From contig NZ_JFKC01000023.1 of NCBI RefSeq assembly GCF_002115805.1, positions 1-64,000 of the forward strand: 64,000 bases of DNA, written 5' to 3'. The notes beneath the pieces were generated by a model. That model did not search any database. It was not told the DNA's origin and saw nothing but the letters and a program-made list of their open reading frames with translations. The DNA comes from Marivita geojedonensis (GTDB lineage: Bacteria > Pseudomonadota > Alphaproteobacteria > Rhodobacterales > Rhodobacteraceae). Below, piece by piece: positions 39,853-50,425 of this stretch. Each line of letters begins with the position of its first letter. Within the stretch, counting starts at the first letter, position 1. The position numbers were made by a program, and so were the translations under genes.

Positions 39853-40437
39853 ATGAAAACGGCGATAGAACGCCTTGCCCGGGCCATGGCGATCCTCGGA
39901 GGTGTCGTGCTGACGCTTCTGGTTCTGCTGACCTGCGTGTCGGTTCTGGGACGAGGTCTGAACTCGATGGGCCACAGCGACTGGCTCATCGCGCTGTCGC
40001 AGACGGTCGCAGACGGGCTGATCGCCTCGGGTGTGGGGCCGGTCACCGGTGACTTCGAACTGGTCGAGGCCGGTATCGCCTTTGCCATTTTCGCGTTCCT
40101 GCCGATCTGTCAGCTTTATTCCGGACATGCGACGGTGGATATCTTTACGTCGCGCCTGTCGGATCGGGTGAATACCTGGTTGGTGGCGTTCTGGGACGTT
40201 GTCCTGTCTCTGCTGATCTGGCTGATCACCTGGCGGTTGTTTGCGGGTCTGCTGGACAAGTTGGGCAATGGCGAAACCACCTTTCTGCTGCAATTCCCCA
40301 TGTGGTGGGCCTACGCGGCAAGCTTTGTTGCCGCTCTCGTAGCATCCGTTACGGCGCTCTATTGCTCGGTCGGGCGTGTGGCCTATGCGGTTACGGGCCG
40401 GTCGGTCCTGCCGCCATCGGGAGCCGACGCGACATGA
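39853..40437 (+). CDS. dctQ: TRAP transporter small membrane subunit (DctQ family)
   Basis: This 194-residue protein has four hydrophobic segments. The first is VVLTLLVLLTCVSVLGRGLNSMG, with the family Arg/Gly pair, followed by a long loop, FAIFAFLPICQLYSGHATVDIF and two C-terminal helices. The insertion between the first two helices is longer than in short DctQ proteins. Its stop overlaps the dctM start by 4 bp (ATGA). Confidence 0.88.
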   Translation: MKTAIERLARAMAILGGVVLTLLVLLTCVSVLGRGLNSMGHSDWLIALSQTVADGLIASGVGPVTGDFELVEAGIAFAIFAFLPICQLYSGHATVDIFTSRLSDRVNTWLVAFWDVVLSLLIWLITWRLFAGLLDKLGNGETTFLLQFPMWWAYAASFVAALVASVTALYCSVGRVAYAVTGRSVLPPSGADAT

Positions 40438-41930
40438 GTATGCTGGAACTTGGCATCTGGTCCTTTCCGGTGCTGCTGACGTTGATCTTTCTGCGCGCGC
40501 CGATCGGGTTGGCGATGATGCTGTGCGGCATTGCCGGGTTCTGGCTGGCGCTGGGCAGCCCGGACGTGGTGCTGGCCAAGCTGAAATCCGAAACATATTC
40601 AACGTTTTCCAGCTATTCGCTGTCGATTATTCCGATTTTCCTTTTAATGGGCCAGTTCGCTACCCTGTCCGGCATGTCCTCGGCCTTGTTCAAGGCAGCT
40701 GAATCCTGGCTGGGGCACCGCAAGGGTGGTGTGGCGATGGCGTCGGTAGGGGCATGTGCCGGGTTCGGGGCGATCTGCGGATCGTCACTTGCGACCGCAG
40801 CCACGATGAGCCGCGTGGCCTTGCCCGAGTTGAAACGCAACGGCTATTCGGGCGGGTTCTCGACCGCCACGCTTGCGGCCGGGGGGACGTTGGGGATTCT
40901 GATCCCGCCTTCGGTGATCCTTGTCATCTATGCGATCCTGACCGAGCAGAACATCGCCAAGCTGTTTCTCGCCGCGTTCATCCCCGGTGTGCTGGCTGCG
41001 ATTGGGTACATGATCACCATTTCGATCTATGTGCGGCGTTATCCTGAATCTGCCGGGATGCGTGATCCGGTGCCTTACGGTGAACGGGTGCGTGCGCTGA
41101 TCGACGTGTGGCCTGTTCTGCTTGTCTTTGGGCTGGTGGTGGGCGGCATCTACCTTGGCTGGTTCACGCCCACAGAGGGTGCAGCGGTTGGGGCCGCGGG
41201 CACAGGACTGATTGCGCTGGTTTCGGGAAACCTGAGCTGGCACGTGTTCAAACAGAGCATCATTCAAACGGCGGTCAGTACCGCGATGATCTTTTTCATC
41301 GTGCTGGGCGCGTCGTTCTATAATGGGTTCCTGGCGCTGACGCAGGTGCCGCAGGAACTGTCGAACTGGGTGGTCGAAATGGGACTGAGCCCGTTCATGG
41401 TGCTTTCGCTGATCCTGCTCTTCTATCTTGTCTTTGGCTGCCTGATGGACAGCCTGTCGATGATCCTTCTGACGATCCCGATCTTCTTCCCGGTGATCTC
41501 GGTCATGGATTTCGGTTTTGTCGATCTGGCTGTGATGCAGGCCGATGCCGCACGCGAGGTGCTCGCGGCGGGTATTCCAGAGGGCATGACGCAGGAAATG
41601 CTGCAAAGCATCGAGGCCGCGATTGCCGGTGGCATCGAACTGACCCGTGAACAGATGCAGGCGCTCGACATTCGTGTGACGCAGGGCATGGCAAACCGGA
41701 TCGAGGCGGAATGGGTCGCGATCTGGTTCGGGATTCTCGTTTTGATCGTGGTCGAGGTGGGGTTGATTACGCCGCCGGTCGGCATGAACCTGTTCATCAT
41801 CAACTCGATGGATCGCGAGACACCGATGATGGAGACCTACCGTGCGGTGATCTGGTTCGTCACCTCGGACATCCTGCGCGTGATCCTTTTGGTTCTGTTC
41901 CCGGCGATCACGCTTTTCTGGCTGTATTGA
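40434..41930 (+). CDS. dctM: TRAP transporter large membrane subunit (DctM family)
   Basis: This 498-residue permease has about 12-13 hydrophobic segments and DctM hallmarks: LRAPIGLAMMLCGIAGFWL, FLLMGQFATLSGMSSALFKAAESWLG, GAICGSSLATAATMSRVALPELKRNGYS and LAAGGTLGILIPPSVILVIYAILTEQN. A hydrophilic insertion of about 60 residues (about 370-430, MQADAAREVLAAGIPEGMTQEM) interrupts the C-terminal part and is longer than in most relatives. The ATG overlaps dctQ. It forms the sodium-driven channel of the system. Confidence 0.92.
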   Translation: MSMLELGIWSFPVLLTLIFLRAPIGLAMMLCGIAGFWLALGSPDVVLAKLKSETYSTFSSYSLSIIPIFLLMGQFATLSGMSSALFKAAESWLGHRKGGVAMASVGACAGFGAICGSSLATAATMSRVALPELKRNGYSGGFSTATLAAGGTLGILIPPSVILVIYAILTEQNIAKLFLAAFIPGVLAAIGYMITISIYVRRYPESAGMRDPVPYGERVRALIDVWPVLLVFGLVVGGIYLGWFTPTEGAAVGAAGTGLIALVSGNLSWHVFKQSIIQTAVSTAMIFFIVLGASFYNGFLALTQVPQELSNWVVEMGLSPFMVLSLILLFYLVFGCLMDSLSMILLTIPIFFPVISVMDFGFVDLAVMQADAAREVLAAGIPEGMTQEMLQSIEAAIAGGIELTREQMQALDIRVTQGMANRIEAEWVAIWFGILVLIVVEVGLITPPVGMNLFIINSMDRETPMMETYRAVIWFVTSDILRVILLVLFPAITLFWLY

Positions 41931-41985: not shown

Positions 41986-42366
41986 TCAGGTGCTGCGCTG
42001 TTCTTCCAGAACGGAGTTCATTTCCGTCAGAAGTTCAGTGACAAGCGCGTGGGTCGATGTCCAATCGAGCCGTGAGCCCCCTTCGACAATGGCAGCATCG
42101 GTTTGCGCGGCTAGAGAGCCGAGCCGCGGGAAGCCGAGAGTGGCGGCGACGCCGGCAATCTTGTGGGCGTGATGGCCAAGCTGGGCGACCGCCTCCGGTG
42201 TCAGCCCGCTGTCCTCGATGTCATTGACGATGTCCTCAAGCTCGAAAGAGCGGACCACCAGACGTTCGAGAAAGTTCTCGCGGATCACGGCGATCCGGGC
42301 GTTGAGATTGACCGATCCCTGGGCTCGGTCACCGGGACGGGTGTGTTTCTGTGCAAGACTAGGCAT
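41986..42366 (-). CDS. Hpt (histidine phosphotransfer) domain protein
   Basis: This 126-residue helical protein contains the Hpt signature AQLGHHAHKIAGVAATLGFPRLGSLAAQTD, with the phospho-His within H-H-A-H-K near residue 66. There is no other domain, so it should shuttle phosphate between receivers. Its start overlaps the end of the receiver/pseudo-GGDEF gene by 8 bp, so they are co-translated. It is the last gene of a minus-strand signalling run: kinase, receiver, receiver-pseudo-GGDEF, Hpt. Confidence 0.88.
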   Translation of the reverse strand: MPSLAQKHTRPGDRAQGSVNLNARIAVIRENFLERLVVRSFELEDIVNDIEDSGLTPEAVAQLGHHAHKIAGVAATLGFPRLGSLAAQTDAAIVEGGSRLDWTSTHALVTELLTEMNSVLEEQRST

Positions 42367-43297
42367 AGTTGACCGCGCTTTGGTTGTGATGTTTGGAGCT
42401 TTGAATGGCTTCGTCGATCAGACGCGACGGCGCTGTGATGTTCGAGGCGCTGCACGTGACCGCAGGTCCGATGGAAATTACCGGTTTGCAGATCGACAGT
42501 TTTTCATAGGTGTCCTGGAATTCGGCCATATAGCTGAGCAGCTGGTCCGAGAAGTTCGTCAGGTTTTCTTCGTTGTTGTTGGGAAGGATACAGACGAATT
42601 CGCCAGCACCCTTGTACGCGATCATCTTTTCCGGAAAGGACAGGCTGTCCGAGATGCAGGTCGCAATGTCCAGCATCACGTCGCCGAAAGCGGAACTGCC
42701 CTCCATGTCGTAGATATCGCGGGCGTTGTCGACATGGATGCCGACGACCGCGACCCGCAACGCCCGGAAGAAGCCAAGCGCGTTCAGGTAGTTTTCCATC
42801 GCCAGGATGCCGATGCCGCCATCGATTTCTTTCATCGGAATGCTGTCGAAGAACCCGTAGGACGGTGATTGCAGGCGAAGGGGGGATACGGCCTTCGGAT
42901 CTGTCTCGGCGCGGTGCCGTTCATCCAGAAGAAGCTGCACCATGCCAAGGCGGCTTTTGATTTCGAGCGGATCGATGGGTTTTGTGAGGTAGTCCGTTGC
43001 ACCGGCTGCAAAGGCTTCATCAATCGAACCCTTGTCGGACATGACCGTGTTCATGATGATCGGAACATCGGCATAGGCGGCATCAGCCCGAAGCTGTCTG
43101 CACAGCTCAATCCCGCTCATTTCGGGCATGCGAATGTCGATGATCACACATTCGAAATCATGTGTCGCGCGCTCGACAAAGGACAGCGCCTGAGGACCGG
43201 AGATCGCGGTTGTGACATCGAAATAGCCAAGGTCGTTCAGGCTGTCGACAAACAGTGCGGAGAAGTCAAGATCGTCATCTACAAGCAGAATTCTCAT
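42359..43297 (-). CDS. Response regulator with degenerate GGDEF-like output domain (copy 1)
   Basis: This 312-residue protein has an N-terminal receiver (LLVDDD at residues 4-9, phospho-Asp in CVIIDIRMPEMSG, Thr in MNTVMSDKG, Lys in YLTKPID). A C-terminal domain of about 170 residues has the spacing of a GGDEF domain, but the active loop reads Y-K-G-A-G-E-F in place of R-Y-G-G-D-E-F. Loss of the GGDEF core suggests no cyclic-di-GMP synthesis; the fold may bind a nucleotide or act as a protein interface. Two homologous proteins lie at 49274 and 54690. It overlaps the Hpt gene downstream. Confidence 0.82.
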   Translation of the reverse strand: MRILLVDDDLDFSALFVDSLNDLGYFDVTTAISGPQALSFVERATHDFECVIIDIRMPEMSGIELCRQLRADAAYADVPIIMNTVMSDKGSIDEAFAAGATDYLTKPIDPLEIKSRLGMVQLLLDERHRAETDPKAVSPLRLQSPSYGFFDSIPMKEIDGGIGILAMENYLNALGFFRALRVAVVGIHVDNARDIYDMEGSSAFGDVMLDIATCISDSLSFPEKMIAYKGAGEFVCILPNNNEENLTNFSDQLLSYMAEFQDTYEKLSICKPVISIGPAVTCSASNITAPSRLIDEAIQSSKHHNQSAVNYA

Positions 43298-43438: not shown

Positions 43439-43819
43439 TTAGCGTTTGGACCAGGCGTCTCGAATCTGGCTGCCCAGCGACATTGGATCGAATGGCTTGG
43501 TGATCACTTCCAGCGCCCCGGCGGCATACAATTCCTGACAGACCGACTGCTCGGCTTTGGCTGTCATGAAGATGAACGGCGTATTCAACGCGGCATGCCG
43601 CTCGCGCACGTTGCGGCTCAGTTCCGGGCCGGTCATGCCGGGCATCATCACGTCAAGCAACATCAGCTGCGGCGCAACCGTTTCAAACGCATCAAGAGCG
43701 GCTGCTCCTGAGTTGAACTGATGGAGTTCGAATCCGTCCACCATTTCCAAGGCCATTTTCGCGATTTCGAGAATGTCCTCGTCATCATCGACATGCATGA
43801 TCTTTTTCAGCTCTGACAC
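43439..43819 (-). CDS. Single-domain response regulator
   Basis: This 126-residue receiver-only protein has HVDDDEDI, the phospho-Asp in LMLLDVMMPGMTGPEL, Thr in IFMTAKAEQ and Lys in VITKPFDP. The best start is the GTG at 43819 with GAGGGGAAA upstream; an in-frame TTG at 43852 would overlap the kinase gene. It lies 25 bp after the kinase stop and is the obvious phospho-acceptor for it, passing phosphate toward the Hpt and pseudo-GGDEF proteins. Confidence 0.87.
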   Translation of the reverse strand: MSELKKIMHVDDDEDILEIAKMALEMVDGFELHQFNSGAAALDAFETVAPQLMLLDVMMPGMTGPELSRNVRERHAALNTPFIFMTAKAEQSVCQELYAAGALEVITKPFDPMSLGSQIRDAWSKR

Positions 43820-43844
43820 CTGATTTCCCCTCGATCGCAAATTT

Positions 43845-45515
43845 TTAGGCAACTGCCGTTTCGTTCATGCTCATTTCGGACGCGACGCTCTTCTCCAGAT
43901 CAAAGTAGAAGGTTGTTCCTTCTCCCACCTTGGTGTCGAAGGAAATCTGTCCGCCGTGGCGATGAACGATTTCCCGACAGATCGTCAAACCGAGCCCCGT
44001 GCTCGGGAACGCGTTGCTTTGCGTGCCTTCGATCTGGATGAAACTGTCAAACAACGTGTCGCGCGCATGTTCGGGAATGCCCGGTCCCTGATCTTCGACA
44101 CAGACGCGCCAGACATCGCCGGAATCCCGGATCCGCATTTTGACATCTGATCCGGCGGGCGAAAACTTCGCGGCGTTGGAGAGCAGGTTGGACATAACCT
44201 GCATCAGGCGCTGTGGGTCGGCGCGCACATGGGCAGGTTTGCCGATGTCCTCGACCGTGAACTTCACGTTGCATTCGGCCGCAAAGGGCGCATTCGCCTC
44301 AGCAGAGTCCGTCAGAATGGTTCGCAGGTCAACGTCATTGGCCGAGATCATCAGGTTTCCGGAATGGAGTTTCTCCAGTGTCAGGATATCGTTGACGATG
44401 GCCAGAAGCCGTTCCGAGTTGCGATGCGCCACGTTCACAAGCTTGCGCGCGTCATGCGTCATCTCGCCCATGAGCCCGGAATCGAGCAACCGCAGCGCCC
44501 CCTTGATGGACGTCAGTGGAGTCCGCAATTCATGGCTCACGGTCGAGACAGAGCTCAGTTTCAGCTGTTCCGCTTTCTTGCGTTCGGAAATGTCGCGTAC
44601 GACCGAGATGAGACTGCGCTTGCCGGGCATGTCTTCAATCGCGTGCGTGAGAACCTCGACCGGGCCGCTGGCATGGTCGAATTCGAACATCACCTGATGT
44701 GCTTCATTGTTCAGTAGCGGACCGAGATAGCGCTGGAACAACTGCATTTCATGTTTGTGGAACAGGTCGTTCAGCGACTTGGGATCTTTGGTGTCGGTGG
44801 CCCACCTCGACCGCCTTATGAACGCGTCATTCGTATAGCTGACCTCATACGACCAGGGATCGTAAATGATGACCCCGTCGCGAAGGATTTCGACAAGCTC
44901 GTTTCTACTGTCCTCTGCGCTTTGGGCGATGGCGCTTGTCACATCAGTGCGGATAAAGACAAATCCTACAACCTGTCCGTTGCGACCGACTTTCGGCGAG
45001 ATGGTTGTCTGAGTGGTGATCCGGCGCCCGAACTTGTCCGAAAGTTCTTCGAGACCGGACCAAAGGCTTCCCTGCTTCACGGTGATGAGCGCGGCATGAT
45101 AGACGGACCCGGCCGCATCGGTCCGGTAGAGCGCCGAGGCAGGCTGTCCGATGATTTCGTCTTTCGTATAGCCGAACGTTTCGGAAAAATTCTTGTTCAC
45201 TTCGGTGATTGTGCCGAACGTGTCGGTGACGCAGACGATGGTGTGTTCGCTGAGTATCTGTTCCTGCAGGGCGACGGTCATGCTGTCGGCCATCATCTGG
45301 CCGGACAGGTTTCGTGCTCGGATGACATTTTTCAGACTGCCGGCTCCGGCGGAAACCAGAAGCACCACGGCTGTCGCCAGAAGAAATGAGTCGACCCGTC
45401 CGGAGGTTTGCATCGCCCAGAACGCGCCGACGAGCAGAAGCGAAACGACTAACGCCGAGAAGACCCAGGAGAGGTCGCTTTGAACCCCTCTTCGCTTGTC
45501 GAATTTCTGCTTCAT
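43845..45515 (-). CDS. Membrane PAS-PAS sensor histidine kinase
   Basis: This 556-residue kinase has two hydrophobic segments (about residues 17-35 and 43-61) with almost no periplasmic loop. Two PAS domains follow (about 85-195, ILSEHTIVCVTDTFGTITEVN, and 205-315, ending VVRDISERKKAEQ). The HisKA domain has phospho-His 328 (SVSTVSHELRTPLTSIKGALRLL), and the HATPase domain shows NLLSNAAKFS, VEDQGPGIPEHA and STGLGLTICREI. It has no receiver of its own. The ATG at 45515 has GAGGCAGG upstream; the longer frame lacks support. It heads the kinase, receiver, pseudo-GGDEF, Hpt gene run. Confidence 0.9.
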   Translation of the reverse strand: MKQKFDKRRGVQSDLSWVFSALVVSLLLVGAFWAMQTSGRVDSFLLATAVVLLVSAGAGSLKNVIRARNLSGQMMADSMTVALQEQILSEHTIVCVTDTFGTITEVNKNFSETFGYTKDEIIGQPASALYRTDAAGSVYHAALITVKQGSLWSGLEELSDKFGRRITTQTTISPKVGRNGQVVGFVFIRTDVTSAIAQSAEDSRNELVEILRDGVIIYDPWSYEVSYTNDAFIRRSRWATDTKDPKSLNDLFHKHEMQLFQRYLGPLLNNEAHQVMFEFDHASGPVEVLTHAIEDMPGKRSLISVVRDISERKKAEQLKLSSVSTVSHELRTPLTSIKGALRLLDSGLMGEMTHDARKLVNVAHRNSERLLAIVNDILTLEKLHSGNLMISANDVDLRTILTDSAEANAPFAAECNVKFTVEDIGKPAHVRADPQRLMQVMSNLLSNAAKFSPAGSDVKMRIRDSGDVWRVCVEDQGPGIPEHARDTLFDSFIQIEGTQSNAFPSTGLGLTICREIVHRHGGQISFDTKVGEGTTFYFDLEKSVASEMSMNETAVA

Positions 45516-45911
45516 ACCTGCCTCGAACACCAACTCGAACCCTGATAACCGCTGCGCTGACTTGGACACTGTTGGCCAAACTCTCATTAAAATTCGGCAT
45601 GAATTAGGCGCCAAGGTCCTGAAAAGATGAAACGAATGCGTCGCAATGAGGCAGGATGGGCCCACATGCTCCAAGCCGAATTCATCCAATGATTGTGTTT
45701 GATGTTTAAGAAATCCTGAATATTCTTGTCATGGTTGTGCGTTGTCCCGAATTCCCGAGACACATGCATACGATTGTCATGGCCGCAATTGTGCCCGATT
45801 TCGCGAGGGACTTTCGGTCAATGGCCCACCGAGCCATAGATCGTGACGATAGATTAAGAGAATCGAGGAACGCGGGCGCGCGTTTAGACGGGACGCAAAA
45901 CCCGCCGTGTG
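45516..45911. other. Non-coding 396 bp with paired direct repeats, upstream of the kinase
   Basis: No convincing gene is present. Two imperfect 35-bp direct repeats each begin TTGTCATGG (45726 and 45774, spacing 48 bp) and share CCCGA-x-TTC-x-CGAG later in the unit. A short AT-rich stretch near 45690-45725 could hold the kinase promoter. The repeats could be binding sites for a regulator, but none is identified. Confidence 0.45.
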
Positions 45912-46496
45912 TCAGGCGACGGAGGTTTGGGATTCCGACCCGTTATTCGCCTTAAGGTTGACCCCAAGAAGAACGAGTTTTTCGTTCAGACCAGCATAGC
46001 TGCGCGGCTCTGAAATCTGAGAAAACCCGTAGAGACGGCTGTAGAACTGCACCCGATCCGGCTGAACCGATGCGACGCCGTAATCGGCGCCGATCTCGTC
46101 CGCGTAAAGAGCGTATCTGCGCAGGGTATGACGGGCGATGGAGAGCCGCAGACTGCCAAGATCCGGTGCTACGGCGAAACGCGCCCCGTCGATCAGCGTC
46201 AGGCCAGATTTGACCTTGGGCAACAGGATATCAGAGAAAGCCGCCATGGTGGCCGAACGGTGATCGTCCGCCGTCAATACGTGCAACCGGATGGTGCCGA
46301 CAATGCGCCCGCCGCTGCGCAGCATGTAAATATGCGCAGAGCCGGCATAGTCGTATTCATCGAGAAACAGCTTGTCGGGCCGTTCCGAAATCAGACCTTC
46401 CGACAAATAGCAGTTGTACCGAAACGACCCGACGGCGATCAGGTCGGCTTCGTTTTCAACTCTTGTCACTTCGACTGTTTTGGCCAACACTCTCAC
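45912..46496 (-). CDS. FeeM/autoinducer-synthase-like N-acyltransferase (GNAT superfamily)
   Basis: This 194-residue protein resembles the N-acyl amino acid synthase (FeeM) and acyl-homoserine-lactone synthase branch of GNAT enzymes. These enzymes transfer an acyl chain from acyl-ACP to an amine. Seen in order are the N-terminal R26-Y-x-x-Y30 element, an acidic D46-E-Y-D-Y cluster, the central strand GGRIVGTIRLHV (63-73), IDGARFAVAP (102-111) and FYSRLYGFSQI (151-161). The length is typical. Its start overlaps the end of the methyltransferase-like gene by 4 bp, so the two are translated together. The donor and acceptor are not readable. A stand-alone acyltransferase linked to an esterifying enzyme suggests an N-acyl amino acid methyl ester. 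Confidence 0.72.
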   Translation of the reverse strand: MRVLAKTVEVTRVENEADLIAVGSFRYNCYLSEGLISERPDKLFLDEYDYAGSAHIYMLRSGGRIVGTIRLHVLTADDHRSATMAAFSDILLPKVKSGLTLIDGARFAVAPDLGSLRLSIARHTLRRYALYADEIGADYGVASVQPDRVQFYSRLYGFSQISEPRSYAGLNEKLVLLGVNLKANNGSESQTSVA

Positions 46497-47038
46497 TGCC
46501 TCGCGGTGATCTTGGGGAAAACGAACCCGGCATGTCTCTGGTATTCCAGGTACTTTTCTCCGTATGGGCCCTGCTTAAGCAGTCCTTCCTCGCGGATGGC
46601 GGAGTAGCCGTAGATAAAGAGAAGCGTCACGAAGACGGCGAATGATGTGGGATGCAGCGTGCCGAGCGCGCAGGCAAACCAGAAGATGGCGTAGGATTCA
46701 TAAAACGGATGCCGCACGTATTTCCAAGGCCCGTTAGTGATGATGTCATCGACCCGAGACTGCTCATCGAACGCGAGCGACAGATTGCGTTTGGCGCTGT
46801 GACGGACGGCCCAGATGAACAGGCCAAAAGCGACGAGCATGAGCAGAAGAGGCACCAGCGTATTTGACAGGCCCCATATGAAGGCATGGGCAAGGAACGT
46901 TGCGATGCCGAGAAGCGACAGGATGGAGATGACATACATCCCCAGCGGATACTTCTCGGACGCGAAATGCTGTTTGGTCGCGAGCGAAATCACGAGAAAA
47001 TATGCAAGCGCGATCAAGCCTACGAGAAAGTCCATCAC
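46493..47038 (-). CDS. Isoprenylcysteine carboxyl methyltransferase (ICMT/PEMT)-family membrane methyltransferase
   Basis: This 181-residue integral membrane protein has about five hydrophobic segments. The C-terminal SAM-binding elements are GPWKYVRHPFYESYAIFWF (about residues 103-121) and, after the next helix, REEGLLKQGPYGEKYLEYQRHAG (about 149-171). These are the R-H-P-x-Y and E-E-x-x-L motifs of the ICMT/PEMT fold. Such enzymes methylate carboxylates, amines or thiols of lipid-like substrates at the membrane. The stop overlaps the N-acyltransferase start by 4 bp, which makes the acylated product a plausible substrate. Confidence 0.82.
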   Translation of the reverse strand: MMDFLVGLIALAYFLVISLATKQHFASEKYPLGMYVISILSLLGIATFLAHAFIWGLSNTLVPLLLMLVAFGLFIWAVRHSAKRNLSLAFDEQSRVDDIITNGPWKYVRHPFYESYAIFWFACALGTLHPTSFAVFVTLLFIYGYSAIREEGLLKQGPYGEKYLEYQRHAGFVFPKITARQ

Positions 47039-47183
47039 ATGTTCTGCCCATTTCGCGAACCGATTTTTTTGTCCGCGTTGTGTTGTTTTGTTGAGCGACG
47101 CGTCCGACCGTCGTCTGAAAAGACTGTTAAACTGGCAAGGTACATAGTGCGCTGCTCCACAGGTTGTTTCGGAGCCTTTAACT

Positions 47184-47202
47184 AAACTGTAGGGTACAGT
47201 TT
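47184..47202. promoter_or_regulatory. Palindromic operator candidate upstream of the methyltransferase-acyltransferase pair
   Basis: AAACTGTA-ggg-TACAGTTT is a perfect 8-bp inverted repeat with a 3-bp centre, 146 bp upstream of the first gene of the pair. Its CTGT...ACAG core recalls LuxR-type boxes, but the spacing is 5 bp between those tetramers instead of 8. It is probably a binding site for a dimeric regulator controlling the pair; the regulator is unknown. Confidence 0.5.
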
Positions 47203-47271
47203 TCTCACGCGCAAGCAGCTAAAATCAAGCGGCGGCGAGACCTTGTTTTCAGGCCACGCCCTTGAAATTAT

Positions 47272-47289
47272 TGACGCTATTTAGCGTCA
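47272..47289 (-). terminator. Likely terminator after the six-helix kinase
   Basis: TGACGCT-attt-AGCGTCA is a perfect 7-bp stem 14 bp past the kinase stop, followed on the minus strand by ATAATTTC. The stem is moderately strong and the T-run is weak, so termination may be partial. Confidence 0.55.
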
Positions 47290-47302
47290 GAGAATTTTGA
47301 TT

Positions 47303-48739
47303 TTATGTGCGTGCTGACAGAGCAAGAGGGGTGACGACCGAAGTGTCATAGTGGTCATCCCGCGACGCGTATTCCGCCGTTTTTTCCGACGCGTGTACGA
47401 CTGCGCAGGGCAATTCGACAAAGAAGGTGGTTCCGACGCCCAGCTCGCTTTCGTAGTCGATCGATCCGCCAATGGCTTCGATGATTTCGCGCGAGATGTT
47501 CATGCCGAGGCCGGTCCCGCCGAATTTGCGCTGATCCGAGGAGTCGAGCTGAACGAACCGGCCAAACACATCGTCCTTCGATCCATCCGGTATTCCAACC
47601 CCATGATCCCGAACAAAAATTCGGACGCGGCCGTTCTCGGCATTGAAACCGACTTCCACGTTGCCGTGTTCCTCGGAAAACTTCGCAGCGTTCGAAATGA
47701 CGTTTCCAAGAACCTGCATCAGACGTGACGGATCGGCCTGGACGAAGACCGTTGCATCTGCATCGAAATCGCCTGTCAGAGTAACCCTGTACCGGTCGGC
47801 AAGACCCTGGTGCGAGTGGATGGCATCGGCAACGAACTTGGCCACATCAATGGTTTCCTTGTCGAATGTCATCTTGCCTTCCTCGATTTTCTGAAGATCG
47901 AGAAGGTCGTCGACAAGGTCAGCAAGGCGCTGGCTGTTGCGGCCTGCCACATCGAGGAGCGATTTGGTCTGCGGCGAAAATTCGCCGAACTTGCCCGAAG
48001 AAATCAGGTCGAGCGATCCCTTGATCGATGTAAGCGGCGTGCGAAGTTCGTGACTGACGACGGCGACGAACTGCGACTTGAGCACCAACGCGGCTTTAGC
48101 GCGCTCGTGCTCGATCTCCAGATCTTCGAGACGTTGCAGGCCTTGCCGGTACATGCTGAGGAAGCCAAGAGAGCAATCGATCAGGAAGTACATGACGAAG
48201 ATCACGGTGAAGAACTGAAGCCACATGTCGGACGACAGGGGCGGGCGATAGACCCAGAGGTCCCGCACCGTGATGATCAGGAACGACACTCCGTACAGAG
48301 CAAGTCGGATGGCCAGAGTGCCCACAATCTGATGATTGTTGATCGCGGCATACAGCGCCGCCGCAAACAGACAGAACAGCGCTGTAAACATCCCCACGCC
48401 GTCTTCGGTGATTCCGACCCAGACGGCATAGGTGCAGATTGCAATGGCGCTGACCGCTGTATTGAGAATGAACCCCTTGTGGACGTTCCTGGCAATCTGA
48501 ACATCGCCGGCTGTGTTCGCCTCAACCCGTTTGGCCAGCCAGAGGTCGACATATTCGCATGCCATGCAAACGGTGAAGAACAGGGATGCTTTCAGCGGAT
48601 CGAAGAACCAGCCTGTCAGAAGCGCCACGGCAGCAAAAAGCGCCTGGCGTTGCCAGGTGAGCGTCATCACAGCGCGGGAATAGTCCCGCGTGTTTTTCAG
48701 CAAACGCTTGTGTTTCGTGACGGCGTTCTTCGGGGTCAT
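47303..48739 (-). CDS. Histidine kinase with six-helix membrane sensor domain
   Basis: This 478-residue kinase has an N-terminal membrane domain of about six helices (residues about 30-195) with very short loops, a layout suited to sensing hydrophobic or membrane signals. A short coiled coil (200-222) leads into a HisKA domain with phospho-His 230 (FVAVVSHELRTPLTSIKGSLDLI). The HATPase domain has NVISNAAKFSEEHG, VRDHGVGIPDGS and GTGLGMNISREIIEAIGG. There is no receiver. The HisKA region is nearly the same as in the kinase at 43845, so the two are paralogs or share partners. A 46-codon reading frame ends 5 bp before this ATG. Confidence 0.9.
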   Translation of the reverse strand: MTPKNAVTKHKRLLKNTRDYSRAVMTLTWQRQALFAAVALLTGWFFDPLKASLFFTVCMACEYVDLWLAKRVEANTAGDVQIARNVHKGFILNTAVSAIAICTYAVWVGITEDGVGMFTALFCLFAAALYAAINNHQIVGTLAIRLALYGVSFLIITVRDLWVYRPPLSSDMWLQFFTVIFVMYFLIDCSLGFLSMYRQGLQRLEDLEIEHERAKAALVLKSQFVAVVSHELRTPLTSIKGSLDLISSGKFGEFSPQTKSLLDVAGRNSQRLADLVDDLLDLQKIEEGKMTFDKETIDVAKFVADAIHSHQGLADRYRVTLTGDFDADATVFVQADPSRLMQVLGNVISNAAKFSEEHGNVEVGFNAENGRVRIFVRDHGVGIPDGSKDDVFGRFVQLDSSDQRKFGGTGLGMNISREIIEAIGGSIDYESELGVGTTFFVELPCAVVHASEKTAEYASRDDHYDTSVVTPLALSART

Positions 48740-48744
48740 TGTCT

Positions 48745-48885
48745 TTACCGGGGTGCTCCTGTCGTTGTGCTGAGGACAGGAAGCAGGGCGCGCCCCTTGG
48801 GGCGCGGTCGCAGGACGCGCGCGGATTTTGAGCCCGTATCGTTTGTCGTGCGCAGGAGTGGTCGCGCAGACTCTTGTGGTTTCAT
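48745..48885 (-). CDS. Possible 46-residue basic peptide coupled to the kinase gene
   Basis: On the minus strand an ATG at 48885, preceded by AAGGACG with 5-base spacing, opens 46 codons ending in TAA just 5 bp before the kinase ATG. The peptide begins MKPQESARPLLRTTNDTG and is rich in Arg, Pro and Thr with no membrane segment or signal peptide. The kinase ATG has no close ribosome site of its own; the nearest, AGGAG, lies inside this frame. It could therefore be a translational leader that couples to the kinase, or a chance frame. Confidence 0.4.
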   Translation of the reverse strand: MKPQESARPLLRTTNDTGSKSARVLRPRPKGRALLPVLSTTTGAPR

Positions 48886-49273
48886 TGGACGTCCTTCGCG
48901 GTTCTGCCTGGAATTTCCCGACGCCTTTGAAGCGAATATGGGTAAGGACTGAGGCGAAACAGTGATCAGAAAACGGTGATCTTGGGGTCAGTTACGGCGA
49001 CAATCGATGCTGAAATGGGCGGGATCGAAGCACAAAACGGGTCGTGATCACGTAAGGTAGCATGTGTTTCCGAACGCAGTCTTGCCGCCAAATCCCAATG
49101 TTTTTGGGCTTTTGCCGCGCTGCCGAAAACGCGCGGCCTTCTGTCGGAGTGATGCCGCAATCTGGACATGAAAACGCCCGACGCCCGTTAGAGTCTGACG
49201 CTACGATTCGTAATGGATACCTGTGTATCCGCGTTCTGGTTTCTCCGGATCACGTGAACCGCTGAGGTAGAGA
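48886..49273. other. Non-coding divergent region of 388 bp with a GGATAC palindrome
   Basis: This stretch separates the kinase (minus) from a receiver/pseudo-GGDEF gene (plus). GGATAC-ctgt-GTATCC (49215-49230) is a perfect inverted repeat 44 bp before the plus-strand ATG. A GAGGTAGAGA ribosome site lies at 49264-49273. A 67-codon frame at 48966-49169 lacks a ribosome site and was not accepted. Confidence 0.45.
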
Positions 49274-50425
49274 ATGAGAATTCTGGCTGTAGATGACGAC
49301 AGTATTGCGCTTGAGATTCTCGAGGTGTCGTTGGCTGCCGCCGGTTACGACGAGATTGATCTCGCGCAGTCCGCCAAGGAGGCGATCAAGCGCATCGAAT
49401 CCGCCGAAACCCCGTATGACTGCATGCTGCTCGACATTGTGATGCCGAATACCGGCGGGATCGAGCTGTGCAAGATGGTGCGGCAGATGCCTGAGTATTT
49501 CGGCATACCCATTATCATGATCACCGCCGTGGAAAGCCATGAGACCCTGAAAGAAGCCATTCAGGCCGGGGCCACGGATTATGTGCACAAGCCCTTCGAC
49601 GGGATCGAACTGGGCACCCGCCTGCGCGCTGCCGCTATTCTGGCCGAAGCCGTCAAGAAGTCGGAAATGAACCTCTTTGGCGGCGAAGGTTTCTCTGAGG
49701 AAGAGCGGGGCTTTTCGGATCTGAAGCTTTCGGACGCGTTCTCGCTCGAAAGCAGAACCGGGATCGTGAGCCAGTCGCAGCTTTGGTATGATCTGGCCGA
49801 ACGCGACCCGCTGCCTGAAACCGTACATCTGTTTGCCGTCTCAATCGCCGGAGCGCCGGCGATTTTCCGAACCGTGTCCAATACCGTGTTCCGGGCCTTC
49901 ATCAACGAAGCGGCCATGTCCATCGTCCACACGACGAACCAATGGCAACCGCGCGTCTCTTATATTGGCAATGGAACCTTCATCGTTGCGCTCCTGGAAG
50001 CCCAGTCATTCTCGATCGAGAAGGCGCAGGCGGTGTTTTCGGTCAGTCTTGCAGAAATGCCGTTCAATTCTCTGACGGTCTACAAAGGCAAGATCCGGTT
50101 CTGTTTCGAGCATGTGCTGCACGACGATATCGCAGGCCGCAGCAGCGCGCATGCGTTGTGTGAGCTGTTGCAGGCCGGGGCGGATGCCCGCAAGACCGCC
50201 AGTGATTACCGGTCCGTTGAACAGCAACGCGAGTTACGACAGCGGTTCCTGGGGCGGGGACAGCCAAAACCGGTCACCTCCTGGGAAACCATCTGGTCAA
50301 AACCGGCACGTCGCGTAACCCCCAAGCGGATTGCTCCCCAACCTGCTGGCCGCAAGGGCCGTCAGGAAGACGGCAAAGGGCAGGGCGGCGCGAGTTTCGA
50401 CAAGAACATCTTTACGAAGTTCTGA
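49274..50425 (+). CDS. Response regulator with degenerate GGDEF-like output domain (copy 2)
   Basis: This 383-residue protein has an N-terminal receiver (MRILAVDDDSIALEIL, phospho-Asp in CMLLDIVMPNTGG, Thr in MITAVESHE, Lys in YVHKPFD). A central domain follows in which the GGDEF loop reads Y-I-G-N-G-T-F, so catalytic residues are missing. A basic, Pro/Gly/Lys-rich tail of about 70 residues ends DKNIFTKF and is unique to this copy. The gene is divergent from the six-helix kinase, its probable phosphate donor. Homologs are at 42359 and 54690. Confidence 0.82.
   Translation: MRILAVDDDSIALEILEVSLAAAGYDEIDLAQSAKEAIKRIESAETPYDCMLLDIVMPNTGGIELCKMVRQMPEYFGIPIIMITAVESHETLKEAIQAGATDYVHKPFDGIELGTRLRAAAILAEAVKKSEMNLFGGEGFSEEERGFSDLKLSDAFSLESRTGIVSQSQLWYDLAERDPLPETVHLFAVSIAGAPAIFRTVSNTVFRAFINEAAMSIVHTTNQWQPRVSYIGNGTFIVALLEAQSFSIEKAQAVFSVSLAEMPFNSLTVYKGKIRFCFEHVLHDDIAGRSSAHALCELLQAGADARKTASDYRSVEQQRELRQRFLGRGQPKPVTSWETIWSKPARRVTPKRIAPQPAGRKGRQEDGKGQGGASFDKNIFTKF

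Follow-up and report, generated by a model that had tools for sequence, protein, structure and literature searches.

What does a bacterium make with an acyltransferase gene that overlaps a membrane methyltransferase gene, and what does a sensor kinase gene do beside them? The question is raised by a locus of Marivita geojedonensis, within a stretch of 64,000 nucleotides analysed in full (contig NZ_JFKC01000023.1, positions 1 to 64,000; hereafter the window). A preliminary description, made from the letters of the window, had taken the overlapping genes, here called AAT and MT, for a candidate maker of N-acyl amino acid methyl esters. That proposal has held up in its enzyme families, in the coupling of the genes and in its chemical reasoning, but it overlooked the kinase gene, HK1, which likely turns the biosynthetic pair into a signalling cassette. 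The main addition made here is that the pair belongs to a recurrent synthase–sensor cassette related to LuxI–kinase systems. The arrangement suggests a bacterial signal of a new kind, and its genes are candidates for a class of compounds that has so far lacked them.

The AAT–MT gene pair and the HK1 kinase

AAT (45912..46496, minus strand) encodes a FeeM-type N-acyl amino acid synthase of 194 amino acids, and MT (46493..47038, minus strand) an ICMT/PEMT-like membrane methyltransferase of 181 amino acids. The two frames overlap by 4 bp, as previously described, and the overlap, GTGA (46493..46496, minus strand), joins the stop codon of MT to the GTG start codon of AAT. A start codon in the FeeM frame likewise touches the MT stop at 8 of the 10 other loci with an ICMT-type enzyme (exceptions, L093 and L095).

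AAT scores 123.8 bits against the FeeM profile PF21926, with a curated cut-off of 27, and 14.1 bits against the LuxI profile PF00765, below the cut-off of 24. Its predicted model has a FeeM-like GNAT fold, the closest solved fold being FeeM itself (PDB 2g0b). By sequence and predicted structure, AAT is a clear member of the FeeM family and not a LuxI. The preliminary description had likened the protein to both FeeM and autoinducer synthases and had named the lack of a GNAT fold as grounds for giving up its proposal; the FeeM side and the fold are borne out, and the autoinducer-synthase side is not. AAT shares its Pfam family with FeeM at about 20% identity, and differs from it in having a methyltransferase and a sensor kinase as partners and in that its substrates are predicted.

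MT matches the PEMT Pfam profile at 27.1 bits (cut-off 25), scores 22.4 bits against the ICMT profile PF04140, below the cut-off of 24, and reaches 40.9 against the NCBIfam ICMT equivalog NF040696, far under the cut-off of 160. It is related in sequence to the solved Ma-ICMT (4a2n, E 9e-7). ICMT structures (4a2n and the eukaryotic 5v7p) are the top fold match of its model, yet Foldseek alone gives no significant match. On sequence grounds MT is a member of the ICMT/PEMT superfamily of membrane methyltransferases, in agreement with the earlier description, and by these profiles it falls outside ICMT proper. The substrate proposed for MT also differs from that of ICMTs, being an N-acyl amino acid.

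HK1 (47303..48739, minus strand), the candidate receptor, is a histidine kinase in which an N-terminal sensor domain in the membrane precedes HisKA and HATPase domains. Five hydrophobic segments lie between residues 51 and 187, as judged from hydropathy; with transmembrane segments read in this way, HK1 has the architecture of LuxN/CqsS-type kinases, a multi-transmembrane N-terminal domain with HisKA and HATPase. The genome that contains the window has a single PF21926 match and a single LuxI, the LuxI being located elsewhere in the genome.

Methyltransferases and kinases beside FeeM genes

The family was sampled with 394 genomes, nearly all from different genera. PF21926 matches at E <= 0.001 in 264 of them and at E < 1e-30, our definition of a strong FeeM in this sample, in only 9, the next value being 2e-15. 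The MT profile also separates sharply, with four genomes at E < 1e-90 and the next at 3e-9, and each of the four has one of the nine strong FeeM genes. In these four genomes, one of which contains the window, homologues of MT, AAT and HK1 occur together.

A methyltransferase adjoins FeeM in all nine, and it is not always the same kind: four are ICMT-type, four are class-I enzymes, and genome G010 has another class-I enzyme. At L085, L086, L087 and L089, FeeM is 28–30% identical to AAT and adjoins a soluble class-I methyltransferase, and at L085 the two are fused into one protein of 529 amino acids. The FeeM of G010 has no blastp match to AAT, its class-I methyltransferase is different, and its genome has no HK1 relative at the threshold of the sensor-domain search.

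The same arrangement recurs in wider searches. An AAT homologue is present in 5 of 17 genomes of the Marivita-like genus, and the AAT protein search found three further Marivita loci, all with MT and the kinase. FeeM-profile searches of one small genus, of Loktanella and of the order added 14 strong loci, all 14 with a methyltransferase of either the ICMT or the class-I type next to FeeM and 13 with an HK1-type sensor; the order-wide search gave hits in 16 of 376 genomes, and all 16 were inspected. In total, the co-occurrence survey that the preliminary description had called for covers 29 strong FeeM loci, and in 29 of 29 a methyltransferase adjoins FeeM: 11 are membrane enzymes and 17 class-I enzymes, plus that of G010. 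An HK1-type kinase lies near FeeM in 27 of the 28 loci of the first two types (G010 stands outside them). Near-copies among the 29 (three from Sulfitobacter; G416 and G417) lower the number of independent cases.

The cassette is found on plasmids. Sulfitobacter has three plasmid copies of the class-I type with the kinase (L166, L167 and L168), Sulfitobacter sp. OXR-159 has cassette copies on two plasmids with one methyltransferase split by an IS256-family insertion (among the 17 class-I loci, L168 is the interrupted one), and a Loktanella salsilacus plasmid also has the cassette (L006). On a plasmid of Deinococcus actinosclerus, from another phylum, a fatty acid desaturase, FeeM and a class-I methyltransferase stand in a row with no kinase (L169, 3913-6363).

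As a control, both methyltransferase profiles were run on 40 HK1-type kinase loci without FeeM and matched none. They matched 1 of 21 loci with weak PF21926 hits (1.5 kb flanks), namely L019, which is itself a diverged FeeM with a class-I methyltransferase. Methyltransferases of Neorhizobium and Rhizobium that are 29–33% identical to MT (14 plasmid records) were set aside: 0 of 14 are among the nine records that match FeeM. Two of them, L078 and L079, have no FeeM among the annotated features nearby, and L078 has an unnamed neighbour with no Pfam match. The set of inspected FeeM loci leaves aside the plasmid of a second L. salsilacus strain (H2) and FeeM matches in Rhizobium leguminosarum, R. 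rhododendri and Acidiphilium, as well as a 48-residue FeeM fragment seen at a contig edge in G398.

Exchange of LuxI and FeeM beside one kinase family

The HK1 sensor domain is homologous in both types of cassette, with 36–40% identity between the window and the class-I cassettes. It occurs in 50 of the 394 family genomes, and 8 of these 50 hold a FeeM cassette; those eight had contributed rows to the profile used for the search. For the 42 remaining genomes, 40 kinase loci were taken in (G156 and G212 were left out, as was a second copy of the kinase in each of G241, G390 and G202). In 32 of the 40, the kinase has a LuxI-type protein at most about 4 kb away, and all 32 match PF00765; the other 8 show no synthase of either sort, some of these stretches being cut by contig ends. 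In no stretch among the kinase and FeeM loci searched do LuxI and FeeM both score above 25 bits. The kinase genes of this family are linked, from one genome to the next, to the gene of an autoinducer synthase.

Orphan luxI genes beside a histidine kinase have been described in roseobacters as topologies H, I and J, with LuxN-like sensing suggested (Cude and Buchan 2013, PMC3824088). The likeness to our loci is in gene arrangement, a synthase gene adjoining a histidine kinase gene; the difference is that LuxI is here replaced by FeeM and a methyltransferase, in two kinase clades, and the available text of that paper makes no mention of FeeM.

In a maximum-likelihood tree of 61 kinases, the kinases of ICMT-type FeeM loci form one clade and those of class-I-type loci another, each with support of 100/100. 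Forcing all FeeM-linked kinases into a single clade worsens lnL by 41 and is rejected by the approximately unbiased test (p-AU 0.0006). A quick kinase tree had been seen before the one so tested, and L165, with a very long branch, was omitted from the careful tree, as was L194, which has no kinase. When five new loci were added, both FeeM clades stayed unchanged. Some positions of the sensor domain distinguish LuxI-linked from FeeM-linked kinases or one FeeM clade from the other; one such position is an invariant histidine in LuxI- and ICMT-linked kinases and a serine in the class-I-linked kinases. Because the FeeM-linked kinases fall into two clades whose union is rejected, we read the replacement of LuxI as having occurred twice, the simplest reading of the tree being that FeeM and a methyltransferase took the place of LuxI beside this kinase on two occasions. 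More broadly, FeeM and its methyltransferase would together be an autoinducer synthase, and the kinases would read acyl-homoserine lactones or acyl amino acid methyl esters depending on the species; we put this forward tentatively, at a little short of an even chance. If true, a quorum-sensing system has changed its chemical language by keeping the kinase and swapping the synthase twice, and unrelated methyltransferases were recruited to neutralise the product.

A starred branch of the tree groups the ICMT-type kinase clade with five LuxI-linked kinases, those of L126, L130, L135, L139 and L141. Four of these loci (L126, L135, L139 and L141) also share a protein cluster. The one member tested, L135:7745-9094, proved to be a cytochrome P450 (E 3e-75), and the protein may modify the acyl-homoserine lactone there.

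Proposed product, ligand and output

Known producers of N-acyl amino acid methyl esters are Roseovarius tolerans EL-164, Roseovarius sp. D12_1.68 and Loktanella sp. F13, F14 and D3. The compound class is indeed one of Roseobacter-group bacteria, as had been noted: Roseovarius is reported to make methyl esters of N-acylated alanine, aminobutyrate and valine, and isolates related to Loktanella those of N-acylglycine (PMC6296433). These esters match the predicted product class and are known as metabolites; according to PMC11580390, earlier work had turned up no candidate genes for their synthase. Our literature search, largely at the level of abstracts and with few subscription papers, met no paper recognised as a report of the genes described here. 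At the genus level, and in genomes other than those of the producer strains, strong FeeM genes are concentrated in Loktanella: 8 of the 9 genomes in the genus of L. salsilacus DSM 16199 have one, compared with 8 of 393 from elsewhere in the family (Fisher p 7e-12, a comparison that mixes two profiles and ignores shared ancestry). That every strong locus inspected has a methyltransferase, in kinds unrelated to one another and in one case as a fusion, is in keeping with methylation of a free carboxylate, and among the product classes considered N-acyl amino acid methyl esters have the best support.

We propose that a two-step synthase stands in place of the usual LuxI within a cassette for cell–cell signalling. 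By analogy with FeeM, AAT would N-acylate a small amino acid with a long-chain acyl group, probably taken from acyl-ACP (acyl carrier protein). MT, in the membrane, would then methylate the free carboxylate with S-adenosylmethionine, as its family and its pairing suggest. The resulting N-acyl amino acid methyl ester would be neutral and lipophilic, and an analogue of acyl-homoserine lactone. Gene neighbourhood and the LuxI link of the kinase family point to the membrane domain of HK1 as the part that would detect the ester. In the weakest step, HK1 would pass phosphate to a response regulator, perhaps RR383, which is encoded divergently (49274..50425, plus strand; Response_reg). We lean slightly towards the view that the cassette makes such an ester and that the kinase senses it, a confidence limited by a basis in sequence only, by the other targets known for methyltransferases of this sort and by a genus-level link to the esters that covers Loktanella and not Roseovarius.

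Some observations weigh against parts of this view. In stieleriacine clusters, a methyltransferase near an N-acyl amino acid synthase has been proposed to methylate the tyrosine ring (PMC12479983); those N-acyl tyrosine clusters have nitroreductase and ThiF partners, and the available text of the report mentions no histidine kinase. Response regulators like that of the window lie near 26 of the 32 LuxI-linked kinases and near only 4 of the 23 FeeM cassettes searched; for long matches to RR383 the counts are 25 of 32 and only 3 of 23 (the window, L094 and L006). Finally, the pairing of FeeM with a methyltransferase has exceptions: in Palleronia, Shinella and Rhizobium tumorigenes, relatives of FeeM (99–121 bits) have no match to either methyltransferase profile and no kinase. 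The stieleriacine precedent and the response-regulator recount led us to lower the probabilities given both to ester synthesis with sensing and to the replacement of LuxI.

The product might instead be of use through its own activity, the kinase being no receptor. Some N-acyl amino acids are surfactants, and their methyl esters are recorded as having slight antialgal and antimicrobial effects (PMC11580390). We think this unlikely, given the tie of the kinase family to LuxI at 32 of 40 other loci and the two clades of FeeM-linked kinases, which are as expected if receptors changed ligand along with the synthase. Alternatively, the methyltransferase could act on a side chain, or on the acyl amide of another amine, and yield a methylated acyl amide and no methyl ester. 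Besides the stieleriacine proposal, this draws on the varied substrates of PEMT/ICMT-type enzymes and on an amine specificity of FeeM that cannot be read from sequence. Set against it are the unrelated methyltransferases recruited beside FeeM, which point to one shared step on the free carboxylate that any N-acyl amino acid offers, the fact that carboxylates are the targets of ICMT-type enzymes, and the glycine, devoid of a side chain, in the esters of Loktanella-related isolates (PMC6296433); we regard such a target as quite improbable. That AAT is an unusual acyl-homoserine lactone synthase beside a methyltransferase with an unrelated task, as the RefSeq name of a Loktanella homologue might imply, is very improbable and was set aside on the Pfam scores and the fold ranking. 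The homologue in question, the FeeM of L006 (7995-8534), is named acyl-homoserine-lactone synthase in RefSeq, a name that our analysis suggests is wrong.

Further signalling genes lie downstream of AAT, all on the minus strand. HK2 (43845..45689), a second histidine kinase with PAS domains, could form a further branch; it has a 53% identical homologue in L094 and matches of more than 300 residues also in L133, L152, L156 and L159, and among the FeeM cassettes searched no match of that length was found beyond the window and L094. It is followed by RR137, a single-domain response regulator (43439..43852), by RR312, a response regulator (42359..43297; Response_reg) with a weak GGDEF match (24.1 bits, cut-off 23.8), and by an Hpt phosphotransfer protein (41986..42366; PF01627, E 4e-9). 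Between HK1 and MT there are two perfect palindromes with 8-base arms (47272-47289 and 47184-47202); they are absent from the six other loci compared, so that no conserved operator was found 5′ of MT, and a search of 45600-49300 gave no sigma-70-like promoter. Elsewhere in the window (39853-41930), two successive plus-strand open reading frames resemble, by eye, the small and large membrane subunits of a TRAP transporter pair.
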